From positions 1 to 64,000 of the forward strand of contig NZ_JAENII010000001.1 of NCBI RefSeq assembly GCF_016595525.1: a stretch of DNA of 64,000 nt, read 5' to 3'. This document shows positions 25,732-37,797 of this stretch, piece by piece. Both the position numbers and the translations under genes were made by a program. The DNA is from Haloferula rosea. GTDB taxonomy: Bacteria; Verrucomicrobiota; Verrucomicrobiia; Verrucomicrobiales; Akkermansiaceae. The first letter of the stretch is position 1. Each line of letters starts with the position of its first letter. The notes under the pieces were generated by a model that was given only the letters and a program-made list of their open reading frames with translations, ran no database searches and was not told the DNA's origin.

Positions 25732-26871
25732 TTACTTGGTGGATTCGATCAGCTCGGCGAACTCCTCGAAGAAGTAGCTGGCGTCATGAGGGCCAGGGGC
25801 GGCTTCGGGGTGGTATTGCACACTGAAGACGGGGTGTTCCTTGTGACGGATGCCTTCGACCGTCTGGTCGTTGAGGTTGATGTGGGTCACCTCGATGTCG
25901 TCGGGCAGGCTGTCGCCATCGACGGCGAAGCCGTGGTTCTGCGAGGTGATGGAAATCTTTCCGCTGCGCAGGTCCTTGACCGGTTGGTTTCCGCCACGGT
26001 GACCGAACTTGAGTTTGAAGGTCTTGCCACCGAATACATGGGCGAGAATCTGGTTGCCGAGGCAGATGCCGAAGATCGGGGTCTTGCCGATGAGCTTGCG
26101 GACTTCTTCGTGGATGTAGCCGAGCGCGGCGGGGTCGCCGGGACCGTTGGAGAGGAACACTCCGTCGGGATTCTTGGCGAGCACCTCGTCGGCGGGGGTG
26201 CGGGAATTCACCACTTCCACTTCGAACCCGGCCTGGCGCAGGCGGCGCAGGATGTTGTGCTTGATGCCGAAGTCGTAGGCGACGATGCGGTGCTTCACGG
26301 GTGGCAAGGGAAGCCAGTTGTCCGGTTGGTCGGTGACCACGTTCGGCAGGGTGAATCGGCGGGAGTCCTCTTCCCACTGGTAGCTGTCCGGCGTGGACAC
26401 TTCCTTCACGAAGTCGCTGCCTTCCATCAGCGGGGAGGCCTTGGCGGCGGCGACGGCTTCCTCCGCGGAAAGCTCGGTCGTCAGGCAGGCGCGCATGGCT
26501 CCGGCGGAGCGCAGGTGTTTGGTCAGAGCCCGGGTGTCGACATGCTCGATACCGAGAATCCCGTGCTCGGTGAAGTACTCGGCCAGCGTCTGGCGTGAGC
26601 GGTAGTTCGAGGCGACTGGTGAGAGTTCTCCGATCACGAAGCCACGGACGTGGGGGCCGGCGGACTCATTGTCTTCCGGAGTCACTCCATAGTTTCCGAT
26701 CTGCGGGTAGGTCATCGTCACGATCTGTCCGCGATAGGAAGGATCGGTGATGACCTCCTGATATCCGGTCATCGACGTGTTGAAGCAGATTTCACCGGTA
26801 TGGGTGCCGGGAGCTCCAAATGCGCGACCTTCAAAAAGGCGGCCGTCTTCGAGGGCAAGAATGGCTTTCAT
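25732..26871 (-). CDS. carA: Carbamoyl-phosphate synthase small subunit
   Basis: A 379-residue glutamine amidotransferase subunit that supplies ammonia to CarB for pyrimidine and arginine synthesis. The N-terminal half carries the CarA-specific motif FNTSMTGYQE, and the class I amidotransferase domain has its nucleophile in GICLGNQ (C270) and the His-Glu pair in VQYHPEAAPG. The carB partner is not in this window. Monocistronic as far as can be seen. Confidence 0.97.
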   Translation of the reverse strand: MKAILALEDGRLFEGRAFGAPGTHTGEICFNTSMTGYQEVITDPSYRGQIVTMTYPQIGNYGVTPEDNESAGPHVRGFVIGELSPVASNYRSRQTLAEYFTEHGILGIEHVDTRALTKHLRSAGAMRACLTTELSAEEAVAAAKASPLMEGSDFVKEVSTPDSYQWEEDSRRFTLPNVVTDQPDNWLPLPPVKHRIVAYDFGIKHNILRRLRQAGFEVEVVNSRTPADEVLAKNPDGVFLSNGPGDPAALGYIHEEVRKLIGKTPIFGICLGNQILAHVFGGKTFKLKFGHRGGNQPVKDLRSGKISITSQNHGFAVDGDSLPDDIEVTHINLNDQTVEGIRHKEHPVFSVQYHPEAAPGPHDASYFFEEFAELIESTK

Positions 26872-27969: not shown

Positions 27970-28713
27970 ATGTTTGCGAAGTGGACCTTGAGCCTGTGGA
28001 TTCTTGTCATGGTCATGCCGCTCACGGCGAAACCGGAGCGGAAGGAAGTCGACGGCATCACTTACCACCTGCTCCGCGTGCCGGCGGCATCGGTGCGGGT
28101 CATCTGGAAGGATAACGCTGGAAAACCGCTCAGGACCTTTCCCGCGACCACGAAGTTTCTGGAATCGAAGGGCGAGGACGTGCAGGTGCTCATGAATGGC
28201 GGGATCTTCGAGCCCGGAGGGATTCCGAGTGGGCTCCTCGTGCAGGATGGCAGCACCCTGCATCCGGTGAACCGGCGTCCGGGGAAGGGGAATTTCTACC
28301 TGATGCCCAATGGGATTTTTCAGATCACGGCCAAGGGAGCGTCGGTGATCCGGACGGATGAGTATCCTTTGGGAAATGCCGCCGTGACCTACGCCGTGCA
28401 GTCGGGGCCCTTGCTCCTCCGCAAGGGGAAGGTGCATCCGGCGTTCAATGCTCCCTCGACCTCACGGCTGCATCGCAACGGCGTGGGCGTGGCGAGAAAC
28501 GGAGATGTCGTCTTTGCGATGACTGACTTCCACTCGGCGAAGTTTCCCAACCTGTTCGAGTTCGCCGGGCTGTTCCGTCAACTCGGTTGCGATGACGCCT
28601 TGTTTCTGGATGGCGATATCAGCCAGATGCGGTGGGGCGATGGACTCAAGAAACCGGGCAACCGCTTCGGGTCCTTCATTGCCGTGGTCGGGGAAGCGAC
28701 GCCGGATGAATGA
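27970..28713 (+). CDS. Exported phosphodiester-glycosidase-like protein (NAGPA/YigE type)
   Basis: A 247-residue exported protein with a signal peptide (MFAKWTLSLWILVMVMPLTA). The body matches the phosphodiester glycosidase (NAGPA) fold: VLMNGGIFEPGGIPSGL early, YAVQSGPLLLRKGK in the middle, and LGCDDALFLDGDISQM near the C-terminus, which are the typical glycine and aspartate positions. Family enzymes expose N-acetylglucosamine or related sugars by hydrolysing phosphodiesters; the bacterial substrate is not established. It diverges from the PlsC gene. Confidence 0.85.
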   Translation: MFAKWTLSLWILVMVMPLTAKPERKEVDGITYHLLRVPAASVRVIWKDNAGKPLRTFPATTKFLESKGEDVQVLMNGGIFEPGGIPSGLLVQDGSTLHPVNRRPGKGNFYLMPNGIFQITAKGASVIRTDEYPLGNAAVTYAVQSGPLLLRKGKVHPAFNAPSTSRLHRNGVGVARNGDVVFAMTDFHSAKFPNLFEFAGLFRQLGCDDALFLDGDISQMRWGDGLKKPGNRFGSFIAVVGEATPDE

Positions 28714-28754
28714 GGAGGCCTGTTAGGCTCTTGCCGGTAGCCTGCCCCGATTTT

Positions 28755-28910
28755 ACTGTAGGCAAGACGGTGACGATCACCCTGCGCGTGTGGGATTTCT
28801 CCGTGGATCTCAACCACTACGTCGAGCGCCCGGACACCATAGCACCCGAGTGGATGGTGGGCTCCAGTATTCTTCCAGTCGTGGAGAACCTTTCAGCCAA
28901 GTGGCTCCAG
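28755..28910 (+). pseudogene. Remnant of an outer-membrane-barrel gene (C-terminal 52 codons)
   Basis: Read on the plus strand, these 52 codons encode a segment (TVGKT...VWDFSVDLNHYVE...PEWMVG...PVVENL.AKWLQ) that matches the C-terminal end of the barrel-like protein at 31614-32504 at about two thirds of positions. The paralogue ends at this point (WVQ stop), whereas here the frame runs on for 12 more codons into the start of the next gene. No start codon or N-terminal part exists, because the preceding gene ends just upstream at 28713. It is a broken gene copy on the strand opposite to its intact relative. Confidence 0.85.
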
Positions 28911-28925: not shown

Positions 28926-29771
28926 TCAATCCAAGCGCCAGCGCGGTGACTCGATTGGAAACGACAGAGTCAGGAACGCACCCCACTCCGGCTCTCCTGT
29001 CTGTTGGAAGAGAAACGCCCTGACCCCTGCTCCCCACTGAATGGGTTGATCCCTGATCAGGGTGAGCTGGCTCAAGCGCAGTTCCAATGGACCAGTCCAC
29101 TGCTCGGCCCTCCAGCTGTAGCTCAGTTCGGCACCCAGCGCGATCGTCGAGGCAGTGGGGAAAGTGTAGGCGAGGAGTGGTTCAATCCGTGTTGTATCCA
29201 CGCGGCCCGCCGACGAGGGCCCTGCAACCGACCAGAGGTGGCTCAGGATCAGGCCGGTGGTCAGCCGGTCGCGCTGACGAAAGAAGCCGAAGCTCGGGCC
29301 GGCACTGAAGAGCTGGCTTCCAAGCGAATCGCGGGTTGCCGTAGGAACCACGAAGGTTGGACCTAAGCCCCAGTAGACATCCCAGGCCAGCGAGCGATCG
29401 GGCGAGAAAAAGAAGGTTTGGACAAGGTCACCAAGCCCCTCCTGTTGAGTGCCCGGCACCACGTCGTTCTGAGCCCGCCAAGTCAGTTCAGTTTTGCTGA
29501 TCGCGTGCCAGTCATCGGTCAACTGGAAGGGGATCCTCGGTCCCAGTCGGAAGGTGTATGCCTTCCCTGAGCCATTTGCTCCACCGCCGTCGTCGTATTC
29601 GAAAACGGTCGGAAGCACGAGGAGTCTGGCGAGCGGATTCTGAAGCTGCCGTTGCAGGTCAGGATAGGCCTCCACGGCGGCTTCCCGGCGTCGCTCGAAT
29701 GGCCCGTCGCGTTCGGCAAGCGCCGGATGCAGCATCGATGCTGACAAAAAACCCGTGGACCAGAATCTCAT
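28926..29771 (-). CDS. Outer-membrane beta-barrel-like protein, second copy
   Basis: A 281-residue exported protein (signal peptide MRFWSTGFLSASMLHPALA) made of alternating short polar and hydrophobic strands, as in a beta barrel. It shares GLGD, VPTAT..SLG and GPSF-type landmarks with the protein at 31614-32504, so the two are distant paralogues. The pattern resembles the MetA-pathway phenol-degradation-type family of putative outer-membrane channels; this is a family-level inference. It is the last gene of the minus-strand block that begins with the DUF1254 genes. Confidence 0.75.
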   Translation of the reverse strand: MRFWSTGFLSASMLHPALAERDGPFERRREAAVEAYPDLQRQLQNPLARLLVLPTVFEYDDGGGANGSGKAYTFRLGPRIPFQLTDDWHAISKTELTWRAQNDVVPGTQQEGLGDLVQTFFFSPDRSLAWDVYWGLGPTFVVPTATRDSLGSQLFSAGPSFGFFRQRDRLTTGLILSHLWSVAGPSSAGRVDTTRIEPLLAYTFPTASTIALGAELSYSWRAEQWTGPLELRLSQLTLIRDQPIQWGAGVRAFLFQQTGEPEWGAFLTLSFPIESPRWRLD

Positions 29772-29835
29772 GAAACGAGCATGCGGACCCCGTACCGTGG
29801 CGGAATCCGCAGTAGATCAGTCGAGAGAACAGGTA

Positions 29836-30042
29836 TTAATCCCGTTTGTTTTTGTTGTTCTGCTTCTGCTTGTACCAATAGGCGTCCTCGCGGCGCTCCT
29901 CTTCTTCCTTCTTGTCGATGGCATTGGAGACCGCCGCACCTGCGACGGCGCCTGCGGCGACGTTTCCGGCCGTGGAAGAACAGGATGAAATGAGGAAAGG
30001 TCCGCCGAAAGAGGCGATAAGGATCAAGAGTGTGGTTCTCAT
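29836..30042 (-). CDS. Small lipoprotein with Lys/Asn/Gln-rich tail
   Basis: A 68-residue predicted lipoprotein. The signal sequence MRTTLLILIASFGGPFLISSC gives a lipobox ending ISSC, followed by an alanine/glycine zipper stretch (NVAAGAVAGAAVSNAI) and a very charged tail (KKEEEERRED, then KQKQNNKNKRD). The start at 30042 is chosen over a longer frame because it puts the signal peptide at the N-terminus. It lies 26 bases after the DUF1254 gene at 30069 and is probably in the same transcript. Confidence 0.75.
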   Translation of the reverse strand: MRTTLLILIASFGGPFLISSCSSTAGNVAAGAVAGAAVSNAIDKKEEEERREDAYWYKQKQNNKNKRD

Positions 30043-30068
30043 GGATCGTGTAGTTTGGCGTTCCGGGT

Positions 30069-31568
30069 TCATTCAGTAAGCTCCGGATCCCCCGGCATCC
30101 AGGTCTGGTCGTAGAAGGATTCCAGTGGCCCATAGAGGCGGAGAATGGTGTTCCAGCCCTTACCCGGAACCGTCTGGATCCAGTTGCTTTCCTTGCCTTC
30201 CGGTGCCTTCGGGCTGAAGTAGATGTCGTAGGAACCATCGTCGTTCGGCTTGGGAGCGTCCTTGTCCACGCTGCTCTTGCCCGGGAACTGCTGGTCGGTC
30301 TGCAGCATCGAACGCGTCTGGTTGTCGTAGAGCGTAAACGACCAGAAATCCTTCGCCGGGATGTCCTTCGGCAAGGTGATTTTGTAAGTCTTGCTGCCGT
30401 CGAGCGCGTTACCGTCTTTGTCGAGGTAGGCAATCGCATACTGCGATCCCTTGCCGACGTTCTTCACTGCCATCGCCGGGGTGATGCCCGTGGCGTAGAA
30501 GTGCATGTAGACACGCGAGTCGAGCAAACGCGCACCATCGAGCAGGAAATCATAGCGTCCCTGAATGAAGGGATTAGTCCACACCCGCTTGCCGGGATAG
30601 AGGTAATGACGTTCATCCTTCGGTCGTGCGGTCAGGGCACGGGCCGTGACCGATCCCACCTTGGCCGCCTCGGTGAGGATCTTCTTCATGCGCTCATCGG
30701 GCGCGAACTCCTTGCCTTTCTCGATGCCGATCGAGGCGATCAGGCCACGCAGGTCGGCGTCGAGGCCTTCCAGCGGCTCGGCTTGAATGGTCTCGTTGAG
30801 CTCTTCCCAGTAGCCGAAGTCCATCCGGTGGATCGTGTTGTGGAACTTGCCCGAGACGTTGATGAAGTTCATCGGCGGCGGGTTGTCCTTCTTCGAGAGG
30901 GGGTAGATCTTGAACTTCTCCTTGGTCGCCTTGATGGCGGGAGCGGGCGAGCCGTCGACCTGGAAGCCACGCCAGATCACCCAGTTGCCGTAGGTTGAAG
31001 TCTTGGCAACGTGATACCCCTCGGGGATCTCCCCTTCGTAGCCGGGAGGGATGACCAGAAACTTGCCGCCCTTGCCCTTGTCGGGTCCGGCATTGCCAAA
31101 ATCGACCACATACTGGAACCAAGCGTCGTTGATGAAACCCAGCACGTTGGGCGGGGTCTCCATCACCATCGGCTCGTCGCCGAGCTCCATCCACGTCGCC
31201 ATGTAGACCGACACGGTGTTCGGTGTCAGCCACAGCGCCTTCGAGTCCATCAGGTCCTCGAAAAGCAGGGCGGTCTGGTTCGGCGGACCGAACTTGGTCA
31301 GCCCGTGCTCCATCGCATTCAGCGAGGAAATCTGCAGCGAGTTTAGAAAGGCCTGGGTCGCCCGCTGAAGGTCGAGATTGTCATAGACTTTCTGGGTCGT
31401 CTCCGCATCCGGCACGCCGTCGAAGGAGCTCAGGGTGCCAAGTCCGGTCTCCAGCTTGTCCGGAGTCGCAACTCCGTCAGGCACCTCGGTGGTCATCTTC
31501 ATCTTCGGCGGCTCGGCCGCCAGGATCACGCCGCTCAGGGCGGCGAAGGTCAGGGTGGTGGTTTTCAT
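30069..31568 (-). CDS. Exported DUF1254/DUF1214 protein, copy C
   Basis: A 499-residue exported protein (signal peptide MKTTTLTFAALSGVILA). The first half is a DUF1254-type domain (VIPPGYEGEIPEG, YPLSKKDNPPP) and the second a DUF1214-type domain (FWSFTLYDNQTRSMLQTDQQ, DIYFSPKAPEGKESNWIQTV). Both are families of unknown biochemical role, often found together in one chain. It is close in sequence to copy A at 34035 (shared FASIGIEKGKEFAPDERMKK-type block) and more distant from copy B at 32603. It lies in a block with two barrel-like proteins and a lipoprotein. Confidence 0.9.
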   Translation of the reverse strand: MKTTTLTFAALSGVILAAEPPKMKMTTEVPDGVATPDKLETGLGTLSSFDGVPDAETTQKVYDNLDLQRATQAFLNSLQISSLNAMEHGLTKFGPPNQTALLFEDLMDSKALWLTPNTVSVYMATWMELGDEPMVMETPPNVLGFINDAWFQYVVDFGNAGPDKGKGGKFLVIPPGYEGEIPEGYHVAKTSTYGNWVIWRGFQVDGSPAPAIKATKEKFKIYPLSKKDNPPPMNFINVSGKFHNTIHRMDFGYWEELNETIQAEPLEGLDADLRGLIASIGIEKGKEFAPDERMKKILTEAAKVGSVTARALTARPKDERHYLYPGKRVWTNPFIQGRYDFLLDGARLLDSRVYMHFYATGITPAMAVKNVGKGSQYAIAYLDKDGNALDGSKTYKITLPKDIPAKDFWSFTLYDNQTRSMLQTDQQFPGKSSVDKDAPKPNDDGSYDIYFSPKAPEGKESNWIQTVPGKGWNTILRLYGPLESFYDQTWMPGDPELTE

Positions 31569-31613
31569 GGTGTGTTGATTCTATTCTGTTGGACTAATCT
31601 TTAAGTTGGATAG

Positions 31614-32504
31614 CTACTGAACCCAGCGGGCGAAAACGTTCTCGACCACCGGCGCGATGTTGAACCCAACCATCCATTCAGGCCCGAACTCGTCCGGAGT
31701 CTCCACATAGTAGTTCAGATCCACGGAGAACTCCCACGGGCGACCGGCGATACTGAGCGTCTTGTTCACCGTGAGATGGAGCGGGATGATCCAGTCATCC
31801 GACTCGTGGTTGTAGGTCATGATCGGAGCGGTTCCGAAACTCCATCCGTTTCCAGGCATCATGATTCCGAAAAACTGGATCGTCGTCAGGCTCACCGCTG
31901 GATCGTTCGGTCCCAGCAAGACGTAGGGTCGGTCGAGCCCCGACTTGCCATTCCCGGCGACGTCCCACTGATGATTGACAAAGACCCCGACAACCGAGGT
32001 TTCGGTCACCCGTCCGATCTGAAAGCCTGGCCCGATCGTCCAAAAATCAGTACCCAATCCTTTTTCCGTGGCGGTGGGAAGGCTGGTCGAGGCTCCGATA
32101 CTCCAAAGAAAGCCGTTTTCCAAAGTCGTCCCATACTGCACATCCAGCGTGACATCCCCCAACCCACTCTCTTCCTCAATGCGCCTTGATCCCGTGTCGA
32201 AGACCGGCTGATTGACCAAGAAAGGCACACCCGGCCTCACCCAGAGAGTATTGCCATTCGCCAGTTCGAAAGGGAGAGTCGGCTGCAGGTACAGTTTGAC
32301 CATGTCGAGGTCTCCCAAGCCGGGAACATCGCTCTGGAAAGCGTAGTATTGGGTCTGCAGCTTGAGGCTGGTAAGGGAGGTGTTGGGGTTGGCCAACTCC
32401 TTCGCAATTTCGTCGGCAGATTGACCAGTCTCTTGGGCGTTTGCGGCAGAAAGCCACATGACGAATAGGGCTGCGGCTCGCACCGAATGTCTAGGATGGG
32501 TCAT
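31614..32504 (-). CDS. Outer-membrane beta-barrel-like protein
   Basis: A 296-residue exported protein (signal peptide MTHPRHSVRAAALFVMWLSAANA). After a short helical N-terminus the sequence is a series of amphipathic strands ending in aromatic residues (VENVFARWVQ), as expected of an outer-membrane barrel. It resembles putative channels of the MetA-pathway phenol-degradation type. It lies between two DUF1254 genes on the same strand, with gaps of 45 and 98 bases. A C-terminal copy of it survives as a remnant at 28755-28910. Confidence 0.8.
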   Translation of the reverse strand: MTHPRHSVRAAALFVMWLSAANAQETGQSADEIAKELANPNTSLTSLKLQTQYYAFQSDVPGLGDLDMVKLYLQPTLPFELANGNTLWVRPGVPFLVNQPVFDTGSRRIEEESGLGDVTLDVQYGTTLENGFLWSIGASTSLPTATEKGLGTDFWTIGPGFQIGRVTETSVVGVFVNHQWDVAGNGKSGLDRPYVLLGPNDPAVSLTTIQFFGIMMPGNGWSFGTAPIMTYNHESDDWIIPLHLTVNKTLSIAGRPWEFSVDLNYYVETPDEFGPEWMVGFNIAPVVENVFARWVQ

Positions 32505-32602
32505 GGTATTCTCGATTATGAGCTCAGCTTGATCGACTGGCTCAATTAACGGGCTCCGGTTTCATGCTGGATTTTGATTCTCCTGGATTCAGGGAGCCGC
32601 CT

Positions 32603-34018
32603 TCAGTTCACCTTCTCGATGTCGGGCAGTTTCCATCCGCTTTCAAACCAGCCTTTCTTCGGCCCGTAGAGGCGGAACAGGATGAACCAGTCCTCGCCTG
32701 TCGGGATCCAGTTGCTTTCCTTGCCTTCCGGAGCCTCGGGCGAGAAGTAGACGTCGATGGTTCCATCATCATTGACGATCATGGACTCCTTGTTGGTCGA
32801 GGCCAGACCGACCCGCTCGGCTTCCTCGACGAAGCCTTTACTCTTCATGCTGTAGACGATCACCGACCAGAAGTCTTCGGCCGGAGTATCGGCAGGAACC
32901 CGCAGCCGGTAGGTGTCCTTTCCATTGAGCAAGTCTCCCGCCGAGTCGCGAAGTCCTGAGATGTAGTAGGTACCGCCACCCAGTTTCTTGGGAAGATAGG
33001 TCACGTAAAAGTACATGAACGCCCGTTTATCGATCATCAGTCCCGTCTCATCGATGAAGGGGATCCCGAGCTTGGCCTGTTCCAGCGGGAAATTGAAGGT
33101 GCCGTGCTGGCGGTCATCCCACAACTTCCGAAGGCTTCCCCCATCGGTCACAAACCAGTGCTGCATGTAGTCGTAGGCCTGCTGCAATCCTTCCAGCATG
33201 GCGGCCTTGGTCTCCTCATCGGGAGCGAAGGGCTTCCCGGGCACCATGCCGAGAGAGGCCATGAGGCCGGACATGGCGTAGTCGTGCTCCAGGGGCTTTT
33301 CCCGCTGCATGGCCGAGTTGAGATCGGTGAAAAAGGTCCAGTCATAGACCGGCAGGGTGTTCACGGGGTTCTCGTAGACGTCGACAAAGGGCCAGGGAGC
33401 ATCGGCCTTGCCCAGTTCGTAAACCTTGAGCGTCTTGGCGTAGGCCGATTGATCCTCATTGGTGCCACCATTGATGGCTACCGGGCGAAACGCGAAGTGT
33501 GCCGCTGCCGTGTCGCACTGGAGAATGATGTAGCCCTCCTTCGGAAGTTCCCCTTCGTAACCCGGCGGAACGACCAGATATTTCCCGCCATTGCCGGCAT
33601 CCTCACCCGACGGGCCGACGTCGGCGAGCGGGCGTTGCCAGGCGTTGATGATGGTGCCGAACAGCTGCGCCTTCTCACCAAGCGCCGGCACCTCGATCAC
33701 CATGGCCTTGCCATTGAGTGGCACGCCGGCGAAAACATAAGGGGTTACGTCGTTGGCGGTCAGGAAGCCGTGGCGGGAATCCATCGGTTTGGTCATGTAG
33801 GCGACCGTCCCCGGCCTGGCACCGGCATCGCGCTGGATGGCCAACTCGATGTCGTAGGCGGCGACGGCCGGCAAGCCCCAGATCGCCAACTCGCACGAGC
33901 GGCGCACGATCATGTCGTGTTCGGCTTCGGAAAGCTCTGCCATGACAGGTGGCAGACCTGTCAGGAGCGCTGTGAGCGTCAGGACCTTGATCTTGTTGGC
34001 GAATGGATTCTTCATCAT
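32603..34018 (-). CDS. Exported DUF1254/DUF1214 protein, copy B
   Basis: A 471-residue exported protein with a signal peptide (MMKNPFANKIKVLTLTALLTGLPPVMA). It has the same two-domain plan as copies A and C (VVPPGYEGELPKEGY in the first domain; FWSVIVYSMKS and DVYFSPEAPEGKESNWIPT in the second) but is clearly more divergent and lacks their N-terminal DGxxTPDxxET segment. It begins 16 bases after the end of copy A, so the two are co-transcribed. Methionine 2 is an alternative start. Confidence 0.9.
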   Translation of the reverse strand: MMKNPFANKIKVLTLTALLTGLPPVMAELSEAEHDMIVRRSCELAIWGLPAVAAYDIELAIQRDAGARPGTVAYMTKPMDSRHGFLTANDVTPYVFAGVPLNGKAMVIEVPALGEKAQLFGTIINAWQRPLADVGPSGEDAGNGGKYLVVPPGYEGELPKEGYIILQCDTAAAHFAFRPVAINGGTNEDQSAYAKTLKVYELGKADAPWPFVDVYENPVNTLPVYDWTFFTDLNSAMQREKPLEHDYAMSGLMASLGMVPGKPFAPDEETKAAMLEGLQQAYDYMQHWFVTDGGSLRKLWDDRQHGTFNFPLEQAKLGIPFIDETGLMIDKRAFMYFYVTYLPKKLGGGTYYISGLRDSAGDLLNGKDTYRLRVPADTPAEDFWSVIVYSMKSKGFVEEAERVGLASTNKESMIVNDDGTIDVYFSPEAPEGKESNWIPTGEDWFILFRLYGPKKGWFESGWKLPDIEKVN

Positions 34019-34034
34019 ATTTTTGGGGTGATCG

Positions 34035-35528
34035 TTACTTCACCAGTTCGATCTCGCTCGGACGCCACGTTTGTTCGATCCAAGGCTTGAGTGGCGAATA
34101 CATGCGGAGGATCACGAACCAGCTTTTGCCGGGAACGGTCTGAACCCAGTTCTTTTCGAAGCCTTCCGGGGCCTCCGGGCTGAAGTAGATCGTGAAGGAT
34201 CCGTCCTCGTTCTTCTTGATGCCTTCCGTGTTGCTACCCGTGGTCGGGAAACCTTGATCGGTCTGCAGCATCGAGCGTGTCTGGGTGTCATAGACGGTGA
34301 GCGCCCAGAAATTGCCGACCGGAGGATCGGCCGGAATCGTCATCTTGTAGGTCTTGGCGCCGTCGAAGGGCTGCTTCTCCGCATCGACATAGGCGATTGC
34401 ATAGTCGGAACCCGTTCCCTCCTTCGGAGCCGCCATGGCGGGCGTCACCGCGGTGTACGGGTAGTGGAACATGACGCGGGCGTCGGTGTTCATCGTCTGA
34501 CCGTCCTCTCCGTTGAAGAGGACATTCCTGCCGGTGAAGGCCATGATCCAAGCGCTGTCGGTGTCCGGATAGATGCGCACCCCCTCCATGTTCATCTCAT
34601 GCCGCGGATACCAGACGACCGAGCGCGAGGCGGCATTGCCGAGTGCCACGCCATCGGCGAGGATCTTCTTCATCCGCTCATCGGGCGCGAACTCCTTGCC
34701 CTTCTCGATACCAATCGAGGCGAACAATCCGCGGGTTTCTGCATCAATCATTCCCAGCGGCTCATACTGGATGATCTCATTCAGGTGATGATAGAATTCG
34801 CTGTTATTCGGGTGGATGGTGTTGAAGGCCTTGCCCGACGCGCTGACGAATTTCATCTCCGGCTGCTCCCTGAACTTCGAGAGCGGATAGACCTTCACGT
34901 TGTCCGTGCACAGTTTGGCAGCTGCCTCGACGTCGCCGTTCTTGACCGAGGATCGCATAAAGCACCAGACACGATAGGTCTCAGGACGGTAGACAATGAA
35001 CCCTTCCGGAACCGGACCATCGTAACCCGGCGGCAGGTAGAGGTAGCGACCGCCGAGTGCGTAGTTGTGGACGAAGCGGAACCAGCCATCATTGGCAGCC
35101 CCGAGAACGCCGTCGGGGACCTCCACCACGGTCGGACCGTCGCGCTTCAAGTCCAGATCGGGAACGCAGTAGATGGTCGAACTGTTTCCAGTCAGGAAAA
35201 GCGACTCAGCTCCCATCAGCTTGTCGAAGATCATCACTTCGTTCGCTTCGACCGCACCCAACGAATGGGCCCCGTCGATGAGCGCCTTGAGCGAGGCACC
35301 CGGCATGCCTTTGAGGAAAGCATCCATTGCGCGGGTAGTGTCGAGGTAGTCGTAGACTTTCCCGGCAGTCTCCGGGAGCGGAGCCCCGTCGAGGAACTTC
35401 AGGGTGCCGATCGAGGTCTCGACTTCGTCCGGTGTCGAGATTCCATCAAGGGTTTTCTGGCTGACGTCGGAATGAGCGAGCCCACAGAAGGCTGCAAGCA
35501 AGAGGGAAGAAAGGCCGGTGAATTTCAT
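34035..35528 (-). CDS. Exported DUF1254/DUF1214 protein, copy A
   Basis: A 497-residue exported protein (signal peptide MKFTGLSSLLLAAFCGLAHS). A DUF1254-type domain (YLPPGYDGPVPEGF) is followed by a DUF1214-type domain (FWALTVYDTQTRSMLQTDQG, TIYFSPEAPEGFEKNWVQTV). It is the closest relative of copy C. It is the first gene of the block, with the AraC regulator transcribed divergently from the other side of a 103-base gap. The duplicated structure suggests that the copies handle related substrates; what those are cannot be seen. Confidence 0.9.
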   Translation of the reverse strand: MKFTGLSSLLLAAFCGLAHSDVSQKTLDGISTPDEVETSIGTLKFLDGAPLPETAGKVYDYLDTTRAMDAFLKGMPGASLKALIDGAHSLGAVEANEVMIFDKLMGAESLFLTGNSSTIYCVPDLDLKRDGPTVVEVPDGVLGAANDGWFRFVHNYALGGRYLYLPPGYDGPVPEGFIVYRPETYRVWCFMRSSVKNGDVEAAAKLCTDNVKVYPLSKFREQPEMKFVSASGKAFNTIHPNNSEFYHHLNEIIQYEPLGMIDAETRGLFASIGIEKGKEFAPDERMKKILADGVALGNAASRSVVWYPRHEMNMEGVRIYPDTDSAWIMAFTGRNVLFNGEDGQTMNTDARVMFHYPYTAVTPAMAAPKEGTGSDYAIAYVDAEKQPFDGAKTYKMTIPADPPVGNFWALTVYDTQTRSMLQTDQGFPTTGSNTEGIKKNEDGSFTIYFSPEAPEGFEKNWVQTVPGKSWFVILRMYSPLKPWIEQTWRPSEIELVK

Positions 35529-35590: not shown

Positions 35591-35604
35591 AATCACTTGT
35601 GATT
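35591..35604. promoter_or_regulatory. Inverted repeat in the AraC/DUF1254 divergent promoter region
   Basis: AATCAC and GTGATT form a dyad with a two-base centre, 28 bases before the AraC-type gene and about 60 bases before the divergent DUF1254 gene. The position suits an operator. AraC proteins more often bind direct repeats, so another regulator could be involved. Confidence 0.45.
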
Positions 35605-35631
35605 TGGTGCCAACACCCGAGGATAGGAAGG

Positions 35632-36618
35632 ATGCGCTACGTCGCTATGGCCCGAAGCTCCCTCTTGCTGCCCTTCATGTCCTTCTTGGCCAAGGGCGGG
35701 GCTGATATGGCGCGTTTGGAGGCGATGGCGGGGCTTCGGCCAGGTCTGATGGATGATCCTGAATCGTTGTTACCTCTAAACTGGGCAGGCGATTTTCTGG
35801 ATGATGTCGGACGGCGGGAGGGAATTGTGGGGTTTGGAGCAAGGGTAGGGGCGGAGGCGAGGATTGATCGGATGGGATGCTTCGGTGGGCTGCTCGCAAA
35901 TTCACTCACTTTGAAGCAGTTGCTAGATCGCTTACGCAAGCTGGTTCCGTTGGCGAATTCGGGGGCCAAGGTCTGGCTGACCCGGGATCAAGCCAATGTG
36001 AGCCTCCATTTGCAGCATCGGATGTCGAGCGGGCGAGCGGAGGCGGATGGCTTTGCGCTTCTTATTTTGATTGACGCCGTGCGCATGGCGCTGGGGCCGG
36101 AATGGCGACCTCGTCGATTTACACTTGATTCAGATGCTGGCGATTTGGCGGAGCTTGAAGCTTTGTCTGGAGGTCGGAGACTAGGGGAGTCCAGCCATGT
36201 TTCGTTGGAAATTCCCGCATTTGAACTCCATCGAGCGATTCTTCGGGAGCGATTCCAAGACACGGCACCTATGAACTCGCCGCCGAGGGACCTCATCGCT
36301 TCGCTCGAGGCAGGCGTGGAAGCTGGGCTCGGGCGGCCAGTTCCCACCATTGAAGGGGCTGCGGTGATGGCAAACATGAGCCGCCGCAGCTTGCAGCGAC
36401 ATCTGGCACTCAATCAAACCAGTTATCGAGAAGTGGTTGACCGATTGCGCCATCGCCACGCCATCCGATTGCTTGGCGAGATGGACGTGCCTGTGGTGGA
36501 GATCTCGGAGTTTCTTGGCTACAGTAACCCGGCAAACTTCACCCACGCTTTCCGCCGGTGGACAGACTTGAGCCCGATCGAATATCGCCGAAGACTGGGA
36601 GAAGGGCTGATCCGGTGA
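35632..36618 (+). CDS. AraC-family transcriptional regulator
   Basis: A 328-residue regulator. The N-terminal two thirds fit the AraC-binding-domain type found in OruR/ArgR-like regulators (LTLKQLLDRLRKLVPLANS), and the C-terminal 100 residues hold two helix-turn-helix units: MSRRSLQRHL, and ISEFLGYSNPANFTHAFRRW followed by SPIEYRR. The ATG at 35632 has purine-rich GAGG and AGGAAGG upstream; a GTG 11 codons earlier lacks this. The divergent arrangement makes the DUF1254 block its likely target; the inducer is unknown. Confidence 0.92.
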   Translation: MRYVAMARSSLLLPFMSFLAKGGADMARLEAMAGLRPGLMDDPESLLPLNWAGDFLDDVGRREGIVGFGARVGAEARIDRMGCFGGLLANSLTLKQLLDRLRKLVPLANSGAKVWLTRDQANVSLHLQHRMSSGRAEADGFALLILIDAVRMALGPEWRPRRFTLDSDAGDLAELEALSGGRRLGESSHVSLEIPAFELHRAILRERFQDTAPMNSPPRDLIASLEAGVEAGLGRPVPTIEGAAVMANMSRRSLQRHLALNQTSYREVVDRLRHRHAIRLLGEMDVPVVEISEFLGYSNPANFTHAFRRWTDLSPIEYRRRLGEGLIR

Positions 36619-36713: not shown

Positions 36714-37670
36714 TCACTTCGACTGCTCAAGCATGCGCAGCAGCGGAGCCTCGGCCCGGGAGCGGATGTCCTCGGGGAGTTCGACCTGGGGTGACAGGTT
36801 GGCGAGGCAGTCGTGGAGTTTTTCCAGGGTGTTCATCTTCATGAACCGGCAGTCGGCGCAGGCGCACTTGTCGGTGGGCCCCGGAATGAGGTTCTTGTTA
36901 GGCACCTCTTTCTGAAGTCGATGAAGCATGCCGCTTTCGGTGACGACGATGATGTTCTGGGCGTCGACTTCCTTGCAGTAGGTCACCATGCGCTCGGTCG
37001 AGCAGACTTCGTCGGCAAGCAGGCGGACGGCCTGGGTGCACTCGGGGTGGGCGACGACGACGGCGTCCGGGTGTTCCTTCTTGATCCTGTTGATCGAGTC
37101 GCGGGTGAACTCGACGTGGACGTAGCAGGAGCCTTTCCACAGGTCCATCTTGCGGCCGGTCTTCTCCATGACCCAGGCACCGAGGTTGGCATCGGGGACG
37201 AAGAGAATCGGGCGGTCCTTGGGCGCGCGATCGACGATGCGGATGGCGTTGCCCGAGGTGCAGATGACATCGCACAGGGCTTTGACGTGGGCCGAGCAGT
37301 TGATGTAGGCGATGACGTAGTAGTTCTTCTCCTTGTTGGCTTCGAGGAAGGCCTCGAGTTCCGGTCCGGGACAGCTTTCCTCGAGCGAGCAGCCGGCATC
37401 CTTGTCGGGAAGGACCACGGTTTTTGACGGGTTCACGATCTTGGCGGTTTCGGCCATGAAGTGAACACCGCAGAAGCAGATGACGTCGGCATCGGTCTCC
37501 TTCGCCTTGTAGGCGAGGCCGAGCGAGTCACCGACGTAGTCGGCCAGGTCCTGGATGTCGCCGGTCTGGTAATTGTGGGCGAGGATCACGGCGTTCTTTT
37601 CCTTCTTCAACTGAAGGATGGCGTCCTTGAGATCGAGAGCGGCGCTGGGCATGCGGGGAGAGTGGGGCAT
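36714..37670 (-). CDS. nadA: Quinolinate synthase NadA
   Basis: A 318-residue [4Fe-4S] enzyme that condenses iminoaspartate with dihydroxyacetone phosphate to quinolinate for NAD synthesis. Landmarks are ILAHNYQTGDIQDLADY near the start, CGVHFMAETAKI, the ligand cysteine in ICTSGNA (C137), AHPEC and CADCRFM. The start at 37670 is preferred; an internal methionine at 37652 is also possible, and the open frame continues upstream to 37796 with no family match. nadB and nadC are not nearby. A strong hairpin lies upstream at 37798-37827. Confidence 0.95.
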   Translation of the reverse strand: MPHSPRMPSAALDLKDAILQLKKEKNAVILAHNYQTGDIQDLADYVGDSLGLAYKAKETDADVICFCGVHFMAETAKIVNPSKTVVLPDKDAGCSLEESCPGPELEAFLEANKEKNYYVIAYINCSAHVKALCDVICTSGNAIRIVDRAPKDRPILFVPDANLGAWVMEKTGRKMDLWKGSCYVHVEFTRDSINRIKKEHPDAVVVAHPECTQAVRLLADEVCSTERMVTYCKEVDAQNIIVVTESGMLHRLQKEVPNKNLIPGPTDKCACADCRFMKMNTLEKLHDCLANLSPQVELPEDIRSRAEAPLLRMLEQSK

Positions 37671-37797
37671 CGAACCCCGGACGTCCAACTTTGAACGCTG
37701 AAATGCGGGCCAAGGTGGGTGGGGCGTCGCCGCTGAGAAGATGGAGGGAGGCGGGGAGGAGTGGATTCCGAAGGGGAAATCGTAAGGGCCGTACAAG

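Follow-up and report, generated by a model that had tools for sequence, protein, structure and literature searches.

A Haloferula rosea gene cluster joining DUF1254/DUF1214 proteins to COG4313-like barrels: a possible envelope system for amphipathic compounds

INTRODUCTION

The closest described counterparts of the system considered here are channels of the COG4313 family and the regulators beside them. According to the available part of the structural report, Pput2725 (4rl8) is a 12-stranded barrel with an inserted N terminus and detergent bound inside; channels of this kind are argued to import hydrophobic or amphipathic molecules, and the characterized members are TcpY (trichlorophenol) and SphA (sphingosine) (PMC4493636). 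SphA lies divergent from the AraC-family regulator SphR of Pseudomonas aeruginosa, which binds sphingosine and whose loss raises sphingosine sensitivity, as far as the accessible text describes it (PMC3900636). A protein-export channel, FapF, is described in the part of its account open to us as having a periplasmic coiled coil (PMC6173800). Here we analyze a 64,000-nucleotide stretch of the Haloferula rosea genome (assembly GCF_016595525.1, contig NZ_JAENII010000001.1, positions 1 to 64,000, hereafter the window), in which three genes for DUF1254/DUF1214 proteins stand together with genes for two predicted outer-membrane barrels and a small lipoprotein, divergent from a gene for an AraC-family regulator.

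A DUF1254/DUF1214 structure has been public since 2007 (2p3y). In the open literature naming DUF1254, DUF1214, VPA0735, PF06863, PF06742 or COG5361, as far as its text was available, we found no tested role for these proteins.

RESULTS

Three DUF1254/DUF1214 genes and two barrel genes form one cluster

The cluster occupies the minus strand from 35528, the 5' end of its first DUF gene, to 28926, the 3' end of its last barrel gene. In the direction of reading it encodes DUF1254/DUF1214 protein C (34035..35528, 497 amino acids), protein B (32603..34018, 471 amino acids), barrel B (31614..32504, 296 amino acids), protein A (30069..31568, 499 amino acids), a small lipoprotein (29836..30072, 78 amino acids, with the lipobox LISSC recognized by eye) and barrel A (28926..29771, 281 amino acids). 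The successive intergenic gaps are 16, 98, 45, -4 and 64 bases, the negative value being the overlap of the lipoprotein gene with gene A. On the plus strand, the AraC-family gene (35599..36618) is divergent from gene C, and its product carries a PF12625 ligand-binding domain and an HTH_18 domain.

The original prediction had described this gene set, its single orientation, its short gaps and the divergent regulator; the coordinates proved exact, and proteins A, B and C score well above the curated cut-offs of both PF06863 and PF06742. Signal sequences of the five large cluster proteins, including that of protein C, were assigned by eye only. All DUF1254 genes detected in the genome (97.5% complete) are these three, with no other PF06863 gene found. 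Because they co-locate, and because the pairing of DUF and barrel genes recurs elsewhere far above expectation, the cluster is not a product of chance.

DUF1254 genes recur beside homologous barrels in distant bacteria

DUF1254 genes pair with a COG4313-like barrel subfamily, and this pairing recurs in distant bacteria. We compared the loci of the best 80 of 555 relatives, taken from an alignment headed by protein A; 78 were usable, L097 and L122 having been dropped when the gene caller found no DUF gene there. Of the 351 genes no more than three genes away from a DUF gene, 12 encode homologous barrels, compared with 1 of the 639 farther out (these counts by gene distance omit genes of less than 90 amino acids, and the lipoprotein was examined separately). 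Such barrels are present in 11 of the 78 loci, and in 10 of these the barrel and DUF genes share a strand; the record titles of the 11 include Mesorhizobium, Phyllobacterium, Roseovarius, Tateyamaria, Geobacter, Acidobacteria, Planctomycetota and Akkermansiaceae. AraC homologues were also concentrated close to DUF genes, with 14 among the 238 genes at a distance of one or two and 3 among the 752 farther away. A Roseovarius locus (L092) has in a row a divergent AraC gene, an AraC fragment, three DUF genes, a gene for an OMP_b-brl-like protein (a sub-threshold match, 27.1 versus 28.7 bits) and a barrel gene. On an Alisedimentitalea plasmid, a divergent AraC gene is followed by an "alkaline phosphatase family" gene and then by a DUF1214 gene.

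We also counted the pairing across whole genomes. These were the genomes of 43 of the 80 loci; since 10 of the 11 loci with a known barrel are among them, a second count was made that excluded the contigs on which the pairing was known. In 25 genomes (25 of the 26 with at most eight sulfatases, a ceiling chosen to have every match included, G336 being left out), 17 of 39 homologous barrels lay within 6 kb of one of 114 DUF1254 matches, against 0.31 expected if genes were placed uniformly along the genome; in the second count the figures were 11 of 33 barrels against 0.27. Before counting, rows were merged or dropped as fragments (barrels from 43 to 39, sulfatases from 120 to 118); one gene, in pieces, accounts for two of the 114 DUF rows, and genome sizes were rounded. 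With the H. rosea genome itself set aside, 7 of the 31 barrels of relatives lay near DUF1254, with 0.11 expected. Across 57 related genomes, own included, a barrel match was found in 17 of the 19 with DUF1254 and in 7 of the 38 without it (Fisher 3e-7, a value that ignores kinship and genome size; one of the 7 barrels is a fragment). The original prediction was to be refuted if neighborhoods in other genomes failed to keep DUF1254 genes with barrel genes; neither the 25 genomes nor the relatives bore this out. Moreover, 7 of the 31 barrels of relatives have a PF13557 match in a neighboring gene within 300 bases, so that paired barrels, as in the window, recur.

The predicted fold of barrel B resembles that of COG4313 channels

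Barrel B passes the PF13557 cut-off, scoring 25 bits against 22, whereas barrel A falls below it at 17.1 bits. Barrel A was assigned by homology to barrel B (24.7% identity over 194 columns, E value 6e-11 in a five-sequence search), and it is 30-40% identical to six barrels in DUF1254 loci of relatives. We modeled barrel B from an alignment of 13 rows, comprising barrel B, barrel A and 11 relatives. The model has a predicted local distance difference test score (pLDDT) of 83.5 and long strands that we counted as twelve; a signal-like helix at residues 9-19 and a helix at 30-38 precede the first strand at 45. Its top Foldseek match is 4rl8, the COG4313 channel Pput2725 (E value 1.6e-9), to which it aligns over 235 residues with a Z score of 22.0 and a root-mean-square deviation of 2.7.

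The GLGD and PT motifs of the window barrels line up with COG4313 channels, and, in place of PTG, both window barrels and the majority of the aligned subfamily members have PTA. Across the 13 rows Asp117 and Pro143 are invariant, Thr144 is nearly so, and the glycine is replaced by alanine in most; the correspondence of these residues to the lateral patch Pro119-Thr120-Gly121 and to Asp92 rests on a weak alignment. Because of PTA in place of PTG, together with a weak profile match to full PF13557 members, we call the window barrels a putative divergent COG4313-like subfamily. A search of PDB sequences with the barrel profile returned a single match (E value 0.44). Such barrels also go by the name "neuromedin U"; a literature search under that name brought up unrelated papers.

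Further members of the family occur in the same genome. A relic at 28752..28910 on the plus strand, inverted beyond the 3' end of barrel A, comprises 53 codons 62% identical to the C terminus of barrel B (E value 7e-21 against a 500-base target) and is also weakly detected by the barrel profile (E value 5e-4). Two other barrels of this family lie elsewhere in the genome (G000, C8 and C33).

The DUF1254/DUF1214 proteins are old paralogues, and protein A is predicted to have the VPA0735 fold

With identities of 43.6% (A and C), 34.8% (A and B) and 27.8% (B and C), the three DUF proteins are, by sequence comparison, old paralogues rather than fresh copies. Arrays of this kind are common: at least two DUF frames of 300 amino acids or more are present in 30 of the 78 usable loci, and 33 of 39 adjacent DUF pairs (one of them from the window) are at most 49% identical. 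That such arrays hold differing types of DUF protein argues for a division of labor among them. Two tandem copies in a genome of the same family (L053) are each 64% identical to protein C, and the best plasmid relative listed for protein B, from Alisedimentitalea, is 44% identical. Among the best 80 of 555 relatives, the best segments matching protein A come from a Kiritimatiellales metagenome-assembled genome (80%), Thalassoglobus (78%) and Desulfoluna (77%), whereas the compared loci of relatives reach 58% at best. Since protein A is closer to proteins of other phyla than to those of its relatives, these identities suggest horizontal transfer of DUF genes. Five contigs from viral collections (L152-L156) also encode DUF1254 relatives, up to 54% identical, which may be viral cargo or host contamination.

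A model of protein A built from 60 sequences (pLDDT 94.2) matches VPA0735 (2p3y and 3vb9) with Z scores of 44 and 43, the former over 453 residues, VPA0106 (3u07) with 24.3 and 6ans with 15.1. These clear matches are uncharacterized proteins whose entry titles give no function; the remaining rows of the structure search, at Z scores of 5.8 or below, neither show nor exclude a relation. A sequence search likewise linked protein B to VPA0735 (E value about 1.6e-48).

Nine positions are invariant across the 60 sequences: N117, P139, R200, P404, W409, Y414, P456, R477 and Y479. No histidine or cysteine column reaches 80% in this alignment, which disfavors a classic histidine-metal site or a Ser-His triad and seems to fit binding, or chemistry carried out by acids and aromatics, more readily. 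Two acidic columns reach 90%, D383 (55 of 60) and D444 (56 of 60), neither of them invariant, and a D383/D444 catalytic pair is possible.

Sulfatases and regulators are frequent neighbors elsewhere

In the 25 genomes, 15 of 118 sulfatases lay within 6 kb of a DUF1254 match, against 0.84 expected, and 9 of 39 barrels lay near sulfatases, against 0.49 expected. A test at the level of genes was weaker (19 near versus 7 far, p 0.02; for relatives, 16 versus 5, p 0.04). Two DUF1254 clusters from the same genus (L036, 444-17359, and L044, 3277-15654) contain sulfatases together with full PF13557 barrels; one of them adds an alkyl-sulfatase-type protein, PAP2 and DUF2950, and the other HAD, bestrophin-like, MoxR-type AAA and DUF58 proteins. 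Possibly the two represent a larger recurrent envelope island. One rhizobial plasmid has DUF1254 with an arylsulfatase, an alpha/beta hydrolase, MoxR and DUF58, and on another a barrel gene is immediately upstream of the DUF1254 gene.

TetR-type regulators also accompany DUF1254 genes, with 7 near and 0 far. Such a gene stands just upstream of DUF1254 in L081, L077, L079, L090, L068 and L121, and both of those scanned (L081 and L121) carry EthR_C. This arrangement suggests that a TetR-type regulator is an alternative local switch to AraC. Other neighbors of DUF1254 that recur by similarity cluster were seen in L084, L128, L035 and L086, with DUF3604, HupE/UreJ_2 and PPIC-type proteins as representatives.

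Regulatory signals, composition and flanks of the cluster

No sigma-70-like promoter was found by a promoter scan of the cluster (2.0 expected in shuffles), and terminator-like sites are near chance, with 9 against 6.8 (standard deviation 2.5). Around the divergent start there is no direct repeat of at least 9 bases that might serve as an AraC operator. The listed start of the AraC gene is possibly too early, an ATG near 35632 being a likely alternative by eye. The AraC protein is the sole PHROGs match, to five families, one of them a named regulator and four unknown, and none of seven proteins matches a PADLOC model of anti-phage defense at an E value of 0.001. For the lipoprotein, no Pfam family scored above its cut-off, and no homologue was found among 1914 proteins of at least 60 amino acids from the window and 108 loci (best E value 0.19).

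Five operon genes have a mean guanine-plus-cytosine (GC) content of 0.592, against 0.624 (standard deviation 0.019) for 39 other window genes, and their GC content at third codon positions (GC3) is 0.753 against 0.756; we do not take these differences as telling of a foreign origin. The genes carA (25732-26871) and nadA (36714-37796) flank the cluster, one on each side. In 16 of 17 genomes of the same genus the two are on separate contigs or widely spaced, and the remaining genome has no nadA match. As an empty-site test this comparison showed no insertion boundary, although most of these genomes are drafts in which the two genes could be adjacent across a contig break. A gene for a phosphodiester glycosidase (NAGPA, PF09992, by Pfam match) at 27970-28713 on the plus strand is convergent with the cluster, and its membership in the cluster is not clear.

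DISCUSSION

Our preferred reading, held tentatively, is that the cluster encodes an inducible system of the cell envelope that handles a small molecule of hydrophobic or amphipathic nature, in which the AraC protein, the barrels and the DUF1254/DUF1214 proteins work much like SphR-SphA. The AraC protein would sense the compound and, judging from the gene arrangement, switch on the divergent operon. One or both barrels might then pass the compound across the outer membrane, by analogy with COG4313 members. In the periplasm or at the surface, the three DUF1254/DUF1214 proteins, which stand where SphR-SphA has the sphBCD genes, could bind the compound, carry it on or convert it, and the lipoprotein may tether parts of the system to a membrane. 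Because sulfatases often join the set elsewhere, the substrates could plausibly be amphiphiles that carry sulfate or other charged groups.

A broader proposal, which we consider doubtful as it stands, is that DUF1254/DUF1214 proteins do the periplasmic work in a mobile pathway that is widespread, is switched by its ligand and acts on amphipathic, often sulfated compounds. Distinct COG4313-like barrels would let these compounds in, and type I sulfatases would often take part. Arrays would then hold several DUF1254 types because these act as a chain or a hetero-complex on one compound.

Several results weigh against the preferred reading. FapF chains score 22.0-23.1 on the barrel B model and thus tie with 4rl8; since the fold is shared with an export channel, the direction of transport is something that we infer. 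The subfamily profile matches full PF13557 members weakly (probability 4.8, E value 0.008). Among the scanned genes of the cluster and its flanks there is no sulfatase. Most of the genes behind the barrel and sulfatase profiles lie near DUF1254, a bias that, for barrels, favors DUF-adjacent finds in the counts above. In 27 loci of relatives no AraC homologue was found near DUF genes; with distance counted in genes, these loci have 3 barrels close to DUF genes and none far off, which is not significant (p 0.17). Barrels also occur in seven related genomes without DUF1254. Of the 114 DUF1254 matches, 85 have no such barrel, and 98 no sulfatase, within 6 kb, so that the partners are optional. Capture or conversion of a compound by way of the channels, as put forward in the original prediction, therefore gains from the genomic linkage and from the COG4313 fold predicted for barrel B, and is held back by the many DUF1254 genes without a barrel and by the tie with FapF.

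Four other explanations were weighed. Although unlikely in our view, the cluster could be an envelope-stress or detoxification module that binds or neutralizes membrane-active compounds such as surfactants, free sphingoid bases or bacteriocins at the surface and does not feed on them. On two rhizobial plasmids, DUF1254 genes lie by genes for mechanosensitive channels, OmpA, DUF2147 or DUF2721, which would fit such a module. Listeria has no outer membrane, and its DUF1254 gene lmo1241 therefore says little about channels. That gene is raised by the bacteriocin garvicin KS in the portion of the study available (log2 fold change 2.36; PMC12791056), and together with the sphingosine sensitivity that follows loss of SphR this favors a role in stress. 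Sulfatase and hydrolase neighbors, however, point to conversion, and uptake channels would be odd in a purely defensive system.

It is rather unlikely that the cluster serves the degradation of a sulfated polymer or lipid, with the DUF1254/DUF1214 proteins as accessory or catalytic partners of sulfatases (for example, as a new hydrolase or lyase) and the barrels importing the products. The co-location counts for sulfatases with both DUF1254 and barrels, and the two same-genus clusters that combine sulfatases with PF13557 barrels, speak for it, as does a Malassezia PF06742 protein modeled as a jelly-roll glycoside hydrolase in the accessible part of its report (PMC4634964). The window cluster and its flanks, however, yielded no sulfatase, and no histidine or cysteine column of the DUF alignment reaches 80%; D383 and D444 are at most a candidate catalytic pair.

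That these are loose neighbors, mobile genes that share plastic genome islands and move as a group but do not work together, strikes us as improbable. Neighbor sets do vary widely between loci, and the identities of protein A across phyla indicate that the genes probably move; yet the pairing recurs in Acidobacteria, Planctomycetota, Alphaproteobacteria, Geobacter and Akkermansiaceae, nearly always on one strand. Least probable of all, the barrels may be secretion pores bringing DUF1254/DUF1214 or another polypeptide to the surface, since FapF resembles the barrel B model in fold (Z score up to 23.1) but the stretch between the presumed signal sequence of barrel B and its helix at 30-38 leaves no room for the periplasmic coiled coil of FapF, and no cluster gene has a Pfam match to a C39 peptidase.

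Under the preferred reading, the channels may admit a compound of greasy or detergent-like character on which the DUF1254 proteins act. The linkage of DUF1254 genes to sulfatases, to AraC regulators and to channels whose family has a published class of substrates yields a short list of compounds and assays for DUF1254/DUF1214 proteins.

Set against the known systems, the locus shares with COG4313 channels a 12-stranded barrel B model whose first strand follows a short segment, and a score above the PF13557 cut-off, and departs from them in barrel A, which scores under that cut-off, in its PTA motif and in its weak profile match. The fold of protein A is that of VPA0735, VPA0106 and 6ans, for which, so far as we found, no partner genes have been studied. 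With SphR-SphA the locus shares an AraC-family gene divergent from a channel gene or operon, here by way of gene C; it differs in its three DUF proteins, its lipoprotein and its two barrels, no DUF1254 protein being named for SphR-SphA in the available part of that account. As far as is known to us, SphR-SphA is nonetheless the nearest worked example of an AraC-family gene divergent from a COG4313 channel.

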